Source: Sediminicoccus rosea (GTDB lineage: Bacteria > Pseudomonadota > Alphaproteobacteria > Acetobacterales > Acetobacteraceae). From it: 64,000 nucleotides of DNA. Position numbers and translations under genes: made by a program. Each line of letters opens with the position of its first letter. Positions within the stretch are counted from its first letter, which is position 1. Shown here in pieces: positions 58,096 through 62,181 of the stretch. The stretch lies in assembly GCF_033547095.1 (NCBI RefSeq), contig NZ_CP137852.1, positions 248,001 to 312,000 on the forward strand, given 5' to 3'. The notes beneath the pieces are model-generated. The model was given only the letters and a program-made list of their open reading frames with translations, did not search any database and was not told the origin of the DNA.

Positions 58096-59574
58096 TCACG
58101 CGCCGGCCTTGAGCAGGCTGCCGCGCGCCTCGGTGTTGTCGGTGCGGTCGGTGAGCGGGATGGCGTAGTCGCCGGTGAAGCAGGCGTCGCAATAGGCCGG
58201 CGCCGCCGGGTCCCGCCCCTCGCGGCCAAGCGCGCGGTAGAGGCCGTCGATCGAGATGAAGGCCAGGCTGTCCACGCCGATCAGCTTCGCCATGGCGGCG
58301 AGGTCATGCTGCGCGGCGAGCAGCTCGCTGCGCTCCGGCGTGTCGATGCCGTAGAAGCAGGAGTTGATGGTGGGCGGCGAGGAGATGCGCATATGCACTT
58401 CGGCCGCGCCGGCCTGGCGCACCATCTCCACGATCTTCTTCGAGGTGGTGCCGCGCACGATGCTGTCATCCACCAGCACCACGCGCTTGCCCTCCAGCAT
58501 GGCGCGGTTCGCGCTGTGCTTCAGCTTCACGCCGAGGTGGCGGATCTGGTCCGTCGGCTCGATGAAGGTGCGGCCGACATAGTGGTTGCGGATGATGCCG
58601 AGCTCGAAGGGAATGCCGGCCTGCACGGCATAGCCCATGGCGGCGGGCACGCCGCTGTCGGGCACCGGCACCACCACATCCGCCGCCACATGGCTCTCGC
58701 GCGCGAGTTCGGCGCCGATGCGCTTGCGCGTCTCATAGACCGGCGTGCCCTCGACCACGGAATCGGGGCGCGCGAAATAGATGTACTCGAAGATGCAGAA
58801 ACGGTTCTCGGCCTTGGGGAAGGGCTTCACCGAGCGGATGCCGGCATCGTCGATGATGACGATCTCGCCCGGCTCGATGTCGCGCACGAATTCGGCGCCG
58901 ACGATGTCGAGCGCGCAGGTCTCGCTGGCCAGCACCCAGCCATCGCCCAGGCGCCCCAGCACCAGCGGCCGCACGCCCAAGGGGTCACGCGCGCCGATCA
59001 GCGCGCCATTGTGCAGCGCCACCAGCGAATAGGCGCCCTGCACCTGCTTCAGCGCGTCGATCAGCCGGTCCAGCACGGTGGAATAGAGGCTGATGGCGAT
59101 GAGATGGACGAAGACCTCGCTGTCCGTCGTGGACTGGAACAGGCAGCCGCGGCGCACCAGTGCGCGCTTCAGCACGGCGGCGTTGGTCAGGTTGCCGTTG
59201 TGACCGACGGCAAAGCCGCCGAACTCGAAATCGGCGAAGAGCGGCTGCACGTTGCGCAGTGCCGTCTCGCCCGTCGTCGCGTAGCGATTGTGGCCGATGG
59301 CGGCGCGGCCGGGCAGGCCGGCCATCACCTTGGCATCGCCGAAGATGTCGCCCACCAGGCCGAGGCCCTTGTGGGAATGGAACATGCCCGCGTCATCCAG
59401 CGTGACGATGCCCGAGGCCTCCTGCCCGCGATGCTGCAAGGCGTGCAGGCCGAGGGCGGTGAGCGCCGCCGCGTCCTTGTGCCGCCAGATCCCGAAGACC
59501 CCGCATTCCTCATGGAACTTGTCGTCATCACCCGGGAGGCCAAACCCAGGGGCGGCTGCGGCGGGAAGGGGCAT
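58096..59574 (-). CDS. purF: Amidophosphoribosyltransferase
   Basis: 492 residues, first committed step of purine synthesis (PRPP plus glutamine to phosphoribosylamine). The nucleophile is Cys24 in [15 protein letters not shown], so a 23-residue propeptide must be removed. The glutaminase has [10 protein letters not shown] and VGHNGNLTN; the PRPP loop is [18 protein letters not shown]-terminal [12 protein letters not shown] is typical. It lies 11 bp after cvpA. Confidence 0.97.
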
Positions 59575-59585
59575 GGGAGTGACCT

Positions 59586-60146
59586 TCAGCTTCGGTTTCG
59601 GGCAGGCGGACGCATCAGGTCCTCCTGCGTGGGCACGCGGCGTTCCGGCGGTGCAGCGATGCGGGGGCGATACTCCTCCGGCATCAGGCCGACAACCCAC
59701 CGGGCCCCATCCACCACATAGGGCAGCGCCCGGGCCTCCTGCACGGGTTCGGGCCAGCGCTCGATGGCGGGGACGAAGAGCCCCGCGAGCACATAGGCCA
59801 GGACCGCGATGAAGGCGCCACGCGCCAGACCGAATATGGCGCCCAGGGAACGATCCACACCCCCCAGAGGGCTGCGCTGCACGCTGCCCGCCAATGCGTG
59901 GATGAGCAGCTTCAGCACCACCAGCACCACCAGGAAGACGCCGCCTACCGCCACGCCATCGGCCAGCCAGTCGGGCTCGATCGTCCCTTCCATGAGGGGC
60001 TTGATGTGGTCGAGCAGTGCGAAGCCGGCCAAAGCCGCGCCGATCCAGGCGGCGATGCCCAGGAACTCCCGCACGAAGCCGCGCAGGAAGGACAGGATGG
60101 CGGAGGCCACCATCACGAGGAGAAGGATGCCATCCGCCCAGGTCAT
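59586..60146 (-). CDS. CvpA-family membrane protein
   Basis: 186 residues with four membrane helices (WADGILLLVMVASAILSFLRGFVREFLG, WIGAALAGFALL, GVFLVVLVVLKLLIHAL and FIAVLAYVLAGLFVP). CvpA is associated with colicin V production and envelope homeostasis, and often lies beside purF. ATG 60146 (MTWADGI) fits homologues; a GTG at 60185 would give a longer N-terminus without clear signal. Confidence 0.9.
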   Translation of the reverse strand: MTWADGILLLVMVASAILSFLRGFVREFLGIAAWIGAALAGFALLDHIKPLMEGTIEPDWLADGVAVGGVFLVVLVVLKLLIHALAGSVQRSPLGGVDRSLGAIFGLARGAFIAVLAYVLAGLFVPAIERWPEPVQEARALPYVVDGARWVVGLMPEEYRPRIAAPPERRVPTQEDLMRPPARNRS

Positions 60147-60192: not shown

Positions 60193-61593
60193 TCATTCGC
60201 GCGTCCGCTTCAGCGTCCCGGCGGCGAAGGGGGCCACCAGATCGGCCAGGTGGCCCACCTCGGTCAGGCGCAGGCCCTCGATGGCGGCGGGCGGCTTGTT
60301 GCCGCGCGCGACCCTCCGCGGCAGCACCGCGGCGGAGAAGCCGAGCTTCTGCGCCTCGCGCAGGCGCTGCTCCGCCTGGGAGACCTGCCGGATCTCGCCC
60401 GAAAGGCCGACCTCGCCGAAATACACGGCGTCGGGGTCGGTCGGCCGGTCGGTGATGGCGGAGGTGAGTGCCGCCGCCACGGCCAGGTCCGCCGCCGGCT
60501 CATTGATCCGCAGGCCGCCCGCGATGTTCAGATAGACGTCGGATTGCCCGAAGCTGAGCCCGGCGCGGGCCTCCAGCACGGCCAGCAGCATGGAGAGCCG
60601 CCCGCCCTCCCAGCCCACCACCTGCCGGCGGGGGGAGCCGCCATTGCTGGGCGAGAGCAGCGCCTGCACCTCCACCAGCACCGGCCGCGTGCCCTCCAGC
60701 CCGGCGAAGACGGCCGAGCCCGAGATGTTGCCCCGCCGCTCGGCCAGGAAGAGCGCCGAGGGGTTGGTGACCTCGACCAGGCCGCCCTCGGTCATTTCAA
60801 AAACGCCGATCTCGTCGGTCGCGCCGAAGCGGTTCTTGGTGGCCCGCAGGATGCGGAACTGGTGGCCACGGTCGCCTTCGAAATAGAGCGTGGCGTCCAC
60901 CATGTGCTCCAGCACGCGGGGGCCGGCCAGCGTCCCCTCCTTCGTGACGTGCCCCACCAGCACCAGCGCGAAGCCGCGCGCCTTGGCGCAGCGGATCAGC
61001 TCCGCCGCGCAGGTCCGCACCTGCGCCACGGTGCCGGGCGCCGAATCCAGCGCGTCCAGCCACATGGTCTGGATCGAATCGATGACGACGAGGGTCGCCT
61101 CCGTCTCGGCCTCCAGGCTTGCCAGGATGTCGCGCAGGGCGGAGGCGGCGGCGAGCGCCATGGGGGCCTCGGCCAGGCCCAGGCGGCGCGCGCGCATCCG
61201 CACCTGGGCCACCGCCTCCTCGCCCGAGATATAGAGCACGCGCTTGCCCGCCATCGCCATGCGTGCGGCGGCCTGGAGCAGGATGGTGGATTTGCCGATG
61301 CCCGGATCGCCGCCCACCAGCACCGCGGAGGCCGGGACGAAGCCGCCGCCCAGCACGCGGTCCAGCTCGGCGATGCCCGTCAGGTGTCGGGGCGGCGGGG
61401 CGCTCTCCCCCGCGAGGCCGACGAAGCTGATGCCCCGCCCGGGCGGGGCCTTGCCGGCGGGCCCCGGCGCGCGGGGGGCCGTGCTCTCCTCGACCAGGGT
61501 GTTCCATTCGCCGCAGCCATCGCAACGGCCCTGCCACTTTGGGTGCGTTGCGCCGCAGGATTGGCAGGTGAAGCGGGTGCGGTCCTTGGCCAT
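60193..61593 (-). CDS. radA: DNA repair protein RadA (branch-migration ATPase)
   Basis: 466 residues: zinc finger TCQSCGATHPKWQGRCDGCGEWN, RecA-like ATPase with Walker A GGDPGIGKSTILLQAA, the RadA-specific KNRFGATDE motif, and a C-terminal Lon-like domain with GLSGEIRQVSQAEQRLREAQKLG. It helps process recombination intermediates. The ATG at 61593 is supported by a LexA box at 61600-61614; longer starts would put that box in coding DNA. First gene of the row radA-cvpA-purF. Confidence 0.97.
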   Translation of the reverse strand: MAKDRTRFTCQSCGATHPKWQGRCDGCGEWNTLVEESTAPRAPGPAGKAPPGRGISFVGLAGESAPPPRHLTGIAELDRVLGGGFVPASAVLVGGDPGIGKSTILLQAAARMAMAGKRVLYISGEEAVAQVRMRARRLGLAEAPMALAAASALRDILASLEAETEATLVVIDSIQTMWLDALDSAPGTVAQVRTCAAELIRCAKARGFALVLVGHVTKEGTLAGPRVLEHMVDATLYFEGDRGHQFRILRATKNRFGATDEIGVFEMTEGGLVEVTNPSALFLAERRGNISGSAVFAGLEGTRPVLVEVQALLSPSNGGSPRRQVVGWEGGRLSMLLAVLEARAGLSFGQSDVYLNIAGGLRINEPAADLAVAAALTSAITDRPTDPDAVYFGEVGLSGEIRQVSQAEQRLREAQKLGFSAAVLPRRVARGNKPPAAIEGLRLTEVGHLADLVAPFAAGTLKRTRE

Positions 61594-61599
61594 GCGATG

Positions 61600-61614
61600 G
61601 AACATAAATAGAAC
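61600..61614 (-). promoter_or_regulatory. LexA (SOS) box GTTC-N7-GTTC upstream of radA
   Basis: GTTC-TATTTAT-GTTC on the minus strand, an exact alphaproteobacterial LexA site with an AT-rich centre, ending 7 bp from the radA start. It should repress radA until DNA damage. Confidence 0.8.
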
Positions 61615-61764
61615 GCAACCGCCCCGCAAGGGCGCCGGGCCGATAGGCGGCGCCGATGGGTGGCGTCGCCGGAACAGATTGGCCGCGCCCCCGAATGCGG
61701 CCTAGCTTGCGTTCATCGGAGCGGCGGTCCCGCCCACCGAGACGGACCCGAAGGAGCGACTGAG

Positions 61765-62181
61765 ATGAGAAAGCACCTGTTCACCGGCCTGGCCGCCGCC
61801 GCGATCGGCATCCTGCCCCTCGGCGAGGCTTCGGCCCAGGGCAACTCCTACTGCAACGGCATGGTCCAGGCGGCGAGCTTCTACAGCACGACCCACGCCA
61901 CCCCGACGCGCAGCACCGTCTCCTACTTCGTGATCATCCAGAGCATGGTCGAGCAGTCGCTGCAGATCGAGGTGACCTTCCGCGACACGCGGAACATCGT
62001 GATCCCCGGCGGTGGTGGCCCGCATGGCCGCCGCCTCGGCCCCTGGGGCACCTCGCAGCCGATCCAGATCGGCGTGGCGACGCTGGCCAATCCCTCGGGC
62101 ACCGGCGGGCTGAACGTGCCGCATGACCTGGCCGCCGGCACCACGGTCACCTGCCGGGTCCTGCACCGCTCGGGCGCCTGA
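61765..62181 (+). CDS. Secreted protein of unknown function
   Basis: 138 residues with a signal peptide (MRKHLFTGLAAAAIGILPLGEASAQ). The mature part is beta-rich, has one Cys pair (SYCNGMV and VTCRVLHR) and a glycine-rich loop VIPGGGGPHGRRLGPWG. ATG 61765 has AAGGAG eight bases upstream. Divergent from radA. No family recognised. Confidence 0.65.
   Translation: MRKHLFTGLAAAAIGILPLGEASAQGNSYCNGMVQAASFYSTTHATPTRSTVSYFVIIQSMVEQSLQIEVTFRDTRNIVIPGGGGPHGRRLGPWGTSQPIQIGVATLANPSGTGGLNVPHDLAAGTTVTCRVLHRSGA

Follow-up and report, generated by a model that had tools for sequence, protein, structure and literature searches.

Directly in front of radA in Sediminicoccus rosea lies a perfect GTTC-N7-GTTC sequence, which raises the question of whether this gene is controlled by the SOS repressor LexA and, if so, whether the control reaches the cvpA and purF genes that follow it. 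GTTC-N7-GTTC is described as the alphaproteobacterial LexA motif, with a known core regulon (PMC12700426, PMC4211646, PMC3323433, PMC1839093), and lexA, recA, uvrA and imuA-imuB-dnaE2 are given as its core SOS genes (PMC3323433). Unlike these, radA goes unmentioned as a member in the available text of PMC3323433, and the word radA is absent from the main texts of PMC3323433 and PMC12700426.

A candidate LexA operator at radA

We examined a window of 64,000 nucleotides, the whole stretch of DNA analysed, together with the whole genome. The putative radA operator occupies positions 61600..61614 of the minus strand and is supported by an exact match to the pattern and by conservation among congeners. 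Read 5' to 3' on the minus strand, the region is CTTGCGGGGCGGTTGC-GTTCTATTTATGTTC-CATCGC-ATGGCC, where GTTCTATTTATGTTC is the box, GTTC-TATTTAT-GTTC. The first-pass annotation had located this perfect motif correctly to the nucleotide, but its distance to the radA ATG (61593..61591) is 6 nt and not the 7 nt given there.

Exact GTTC-N7-GTTC sequences occur three times in the window versus 0.53 expected (100 shuffles, two of which reached three), and 50 times in the whole genome (5.14 Mb, two contigs) versus 22 occurrences of a reversed control pattern. The remaining two matches in the window (13136 and 18138) have spacers rich in G+C and look random, a point in favour of the radA box being a chance match too. 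Nevertheless, only 0.001 exact boxes are expected per 100 nt at the genome-wide density, counting both strands, and the box is found at the same place in 14 species despite changing neighbours, so we give practically no weight to coincidence.

The intergenic region containing the box is shared with a divergent gene (61765..62181, plus strand), which encodes a 138-aa protein without NCBIfam match, and the box could in principle serve that gene instead of radA. However, its start is 150 nt from the box, and the gene is absent as a neighbour in three boxed genomes (G002, G012 and G020), making this assignment extremely unlikely. The upstream neighbour of radA, divergent in S. rosea, is co-directional with radA in G012 and G002, where it ends 42–47 nt before the ATG, and in G020 no gene is listed within 600 nt upstream. 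Since the upstream neighbours vary in this way among boxed species, the site belongs to radA.

The genome encodes one LexA above the TIGR00498 cut-off (162.6 bits), which aligns over both domains with the solved LexA structure 3k2z; a second TIGR00498 match, of 26.8 bits, is an S24 protein and not LexA. Perfect boxes were found genome-wide at both lexA and recA, where the first-pass annotation had proposed to look for them and would have taken their absence as a refutation, as well as between uvrA and ssb, at an ImuA-like gene (NF033429, 84.8 bits, under the cut-off of 150) and at a PA0069 radical-SAM gene (468.9 bits, cut-off 360). The recA box, GTTCTATTAATGTTC, differs from that of radA by a single spacer base. 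The features by which alphaproteobacterial operators are recognised are thus found here, namely an exact motif in the promoter region, a LexA with DNA-binding and S24 domains, the same motif at recA, lexA and uvrA, and a site that is kept where LexA exists.

Among the sites listed for the 50 genomic boxes, one is at a ligase-associated helicase (TIGR04121, 741.5 bits, under the cut-off of 850; partial sequence), and others are at or near genes for an SNase, an S24-peptidase protein, ribonucleotide reductase and two DUF4096 proteins. The set resembles the alphaproteobacterial regulon, for instance that of Caulobacter crescentus, in that lexA, recA, uvrA and an ImuA-like gene are boxed, and GTTCttgttatGTTC, present at two Caulobacter SOS genes in the available text of PMC12700426, is found with the same letters at the SNase-like gene of S. 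rosea. The 17 boxes with at least five A/T in the spacer include several at uncharacterised genes and at least one, L039, inside a long ORF.

Two further observations concern these additional boxes. The DUF4096 genes (IS4/5 transposase N-terminal domain, no other Pfam match) start 8–23 nt past a LexA box, at L013:1501-1515 and at L047 (minus strand) in the S. rosea genome (G000), with look-alikes at L471:1049-1063 and L480:1226-1240 in G012, where only L471 was scanned for DUF4096 (25.8 bits, under the cut-off of 34.3); they may represent a transposase fragment that was domesticated within the SOS regulon. A box is also kept in both G000 (L043:2461-2475) and G012 (L475:1105-1119) in the gap that separates an S24-peptidase repressor-like gene from a divergent one without Pfam match.

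Conservation in the genus and promoter geometry

Our genus sample comprised 21 genomes, with a radA match in 20 (all except G001). A perfect box lies 5–7 nt before the radA ATG in 14 of these 20 genes, and all 13 genomes containing both lexA and radA are among the 14. As the 14 were chosen for a perfect box, the invariance of their half-sites is partly by construction; not so the presence of the box in 13 of 13 genomes with lexA and radA, a fixed TTG, or the fixed position before the ATG. In an ungapped, box-aligned comparison of 55 columns (n = 14), variation was absent only from the TTG at -15 to -13, from all eight bases of the half-sites and from box position 10, which is always A. An in-frame ATG within the box (61605..61603) was considered as the radA start and rejected, because the 5- and 7-nt gaps of relatives break the frame; relatives keep the ATG that precedes the conserved RadA N-terminus.

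The invariant TTG, always 15 nt before the box (14/14), opens a -35-like element, TTGCGG (61624..61629, minus strand). At a spacing of 17 nt we propose a -10 element, TATGTT (61601..61606, minus strand), which corresponds to box positions 9–14 and overlaps the downstream half-site. It reads YAYGTT in all 14 genomes, as TACGTT or CATGTT in three of them, and its distance to the ATG is 6–8 nt throughout. From this spacing, the transcription start is predicted at or 1–2 nt before the AUG, which would leave the mRNA without room for a ribosome-binding site. The geometry therefore points to a leaderless radA promoter, with the downstream half-site contributing to its -10. No promoter was returned at the radA box by a generic sigma-70 scan whose threshold is 9 of 12 positions matching the E. 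coli consensus. The single terminator-like stem from a generic scan overlaps the box and was discarded, as it was within chance.

Joint absence of LexA and its boxes, and the distribution of the radA site

We sought LexA both with TIGR00498 and with the LexA protein of the S. rosea genome. It was present in every boxed genome but one (13 of 14), the exception, G017, being 57% complete, and in none of the six unboxed genomes (G003, G004, G010, G011, G014 and G018); in three of these, the S24 part alone gave a weak match (E 4e-4 to 8e-4). Among the unboxed genomes, G004 is a single contig and 100% complete, and G014 is 74% complete. The recA box was perfect in all 13 boxed genomes read (G002 unread) and was found, allowing up to one mismatch, in none of the five lexA-less genomes read (G014 unread). 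Likewise, a perfect uvrA/ssb box was found in each of the 13 lexA-positive genomes in which that region was read (G006 unread; no ssb match in G017) and no box in any of the six lexA-less genomes, which also had no radA box. Upstream of lexA itself, a perfect box was found in 13 of 14 genomes, with only one-mismatch boxes in G006. Boxes with at least five A/T in the spacer made up 17 of 50 in G000 and 20 of 84 in G012, both lexA-positive, versus 0 of 26 in G010 and one of the 40 listed out of 53 in G004, both lexA-less.

In a radA+recA tree of 26 genomes, the six lexA-less genomes form a single clade (support 100), indicating one loss event, not six; the association of box and repressor gives a Fisher P of 3.7e-5 (G017 left out), a value that ignores that the lexA-less genomes are one clade. 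The radA upstream neighbours in this clade are unlike those of boxed species, and the radA box may have been lost along with rearrangement. Raw counts of GTTC-N7-GTTC were discarded as evidence, because they fail to discriminate: the counts are above the reversed control in each of the six lexA-less genomes but not in lexA-positive G006 (49 versus 58).

The lexA-less clade retains recA, radA, uvrA and ssb (radA loci L063, L078, L065, L062, L069 and L068). The radA of G004 (C1:2959141-2960525, L078) gives a match in two overlapping pieces in different frames, and may be broken or mis-sequenced.

The joint absence also bears on whether the conserved letters could be a promoter alone, of the form TTG-N17-YAYGTT, with GTTC as a by-product and no action of LexA. 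The TTG/YAYGTT spacing is exact in 14 of 14 genomes, and the sequence would suit a -10 both in its A at box position 10 and in its downstream GTT. A -10, however, leaves unaccounted for the upstream GTTC, which all congeners with lexA and radA have, and gives no reason why GTTC is missing where lexA and the recA and uvrA/ssb boxes are missing as well; we consider a promoter without LexA very unlikely. Because the same genome has boxes at recA, lexA and uvrA/ssb, all 13 congeners with lexA and radA are boxed, and lexA and boxes are jointly absent in one clade, the comparative evidence argues strongly for LexA control of radA, as the first-pass annotation had proposed. The radA box is very probably a working control site, of an ordinary kind.

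Outside the genus, 160 genomes of the family Acetobacteraceae were searched, giving a radA match in 151, and the 100 nt upstream of radA were read in 86 of 87 genomes taken (the 27 best-scoring outside the genus and 60 from lower in the list). These contained four perfect and 29 one-mismatch boxes versus 0.21 and 4.20 expected (100 resamplings, with dinucleotide steps kept on average), and 32 of the 33 are in the orientation of radA, with 21 located 12–30 nt before the start. Certain sequences recur, GTTCACGTTTCGTGC in four family radA boxes and GTTCTTGTTTTGTTT in four others, 56–82 nt upstream, with a near form in Asaia (L104). The named loci except L081 (79, of which 77 were read) gave three perfect and 18 one-mismatch boxes versus 0.15 and 4.11 expected, and the three perfect ones, in L100 (Acetobacter senegalensis), L131 and L160, are all opposite in orientation.

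The class sample consisted of 96 genomes with a radA match, one of which (G084) falls in Acetobacteraceae. Sampling each alphaproteobacterial family once (87 genomes read of 89 taken), we found no perfect and five one-mismatch boxes versus 0.18 and 4.63 expected, and a class-wide radA box was rejected for want of any excess over expectation. Given the excess in the family and none across the class, the sequence comparisons indicate that the putative radA site is characteristic of Acetobacteraceae and that in this genus it is perfect and near the ATG.

Among 24 genomes from the rest of the family (four unread), recA mostly had one-mismatch boxes or none. In other genera, the downstream half-site of radA boxes is often off-consensus, as GTGC, GTCC or GTTT (L185-L206, L259-L266), and recA boxes deviate in the upstream half-site, as GTTT (L278-L291). 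The specificity of LexA may differ between genera.

Induction of radA has been described elsewhere. In Sphingopyxis granuli TFA, radA is reported as induced with lexA, recA, dinG and imuABdnaE2 under the heading 'SOS DNA repair system'; the induction is in anoxic growth, and the available text does not describe a LexA box at radA (PMC6472365). The radA gene of Mycobacterium tuberculosis, a member of a different phylum, is up approximately 12-fold with moxifloxacin, with LexA dependence not reported in the available text (PMC7911356). In Bacillus pumilus, radA is stress-induced too, but is described as under CtsR/SigB and not LexA (PMC3896406). The surveyed literature, mostly titles and the openings of abstracts, reports no LexA box at an alphaproteobacterial radA. 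The site may be new within the known alphaproteobacterial LexA regulon.

The gene string and a model for damage control

The radA gene (60193..61593, minus strand) encodes a 466-aa protein matching TIGR00416 with 558.8 bits (cut-off 403.05); by RadA, the closest named relative is an Acetobacteraceae MAG (98%), and Roseomonas-type species come next. A cvpA-like gene (59586..60146, minus strand) follows 46 nt past radA, with a weak match to NF008100 (50.5 bits, cut-off 264), and purF (58096..59574, minus strand; TIGR01134, 500.3 bits, cut-off 350) lies 11 nt past cvpA. As previously annotated, all three genes share the same direction; the extension of damage control to cvpA and purF, also suggested then, is a possibility.

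If radA, cvpA and purF formed one transcript, the SOS signal would extend to cvpA and purF and raise purine synthesis on damage. This is consistent with the common strand and gaps of only 46 and 11 nt, with no terminator-like site found within the gene string in a generic scan, and with purF downstream of radA and co-directional with it in 46 of 70 loci (those with more than 2.6 kb downstream, out of 110). However, the radA-cvpA-purF order is widespread in alphaproteobacteria, a class without an excess of radA boxes, indicating that the order did not arise for SOS control. Moreover, five of the 14 boxed genomes lack cvpA as the immediate downstream neighbour of radA: a stretch of 0.6–1.3 kb separates the two genes in G002, G008, G013 and G020, and in G005 neither cvpA nor purF was matched within 1.5 kb of radA. 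We therefore regard a shared, damage-responsive transcript as somewhat unlikely. Damage control of purF is possible in the S. rosea genome, though it is not a conserved feature, since cvpA is displaced from radA in boxed relatives.

The interval between radA and cvpA contains, in G013, an ORF in the direction of radA that matches an O6-methylguanine methyltransferase domain (PF01035), in G020 a PIN-domain ORF (PF01850), and in G002 ORFs without identification. G008 likewise contains in this interval an ORF in the direction of radA that is O6-methylguanine methyltransferase-like by resemblance (loci L058 and L059, from G013 and G008).

RadA is a branch-migration helicase, and LexA cleaves itself upon formation of RecA filaments on single-stranded DNA. 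The site, the LexA protein, the other boxed SOS genes, the conservation and the joint absence with lexA were seen directly, and to these the model adds, by inference and from general knowledge, LexA binding, repression, induction, the transcription start and the activity of RadA. In an undamaged cell, LexA bound to GTTC-N7-GTTC would cover the -10 and the start point and exclude RNA polymerase. Upon damage, RecA filaments on single-stranded DNA would trigger LexA self-cleavage and leave the operator empty; radA would then be transcribed from a start at or 1–2 nt before the AUG, leaderless or nearly so, and RadA would rise alongside RecA, SSB and UvrA. We are highly confident in this reading, in which the core promoter of radA incorporates a LexA operator and transcription would be damage-induced and perhaps leaderless.

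A more far-reaching version is doubtful, though worth stating. RadA would be a full SOS protein in one genus, with a leaderless promoter whose -10 is a LexA half-site and with purF coupled to damage through the same transcript, and the lexA-less sister clade would have shed its radA, recA and uvrA/ssb operators, repairing DNA without SOS. If true, that clade would be a natural experiment on life after LexA.

With the proposed operator, the RadA helicase would share its switch with RecA, and the surveyed literature contains no report of such control in this lineage. Conservation of the motif is tied to the presence of the repressor, as three promoters are without operators where lexA is absent, and the lexA-less species would thus provide a natural test of running repair genes without SOS.
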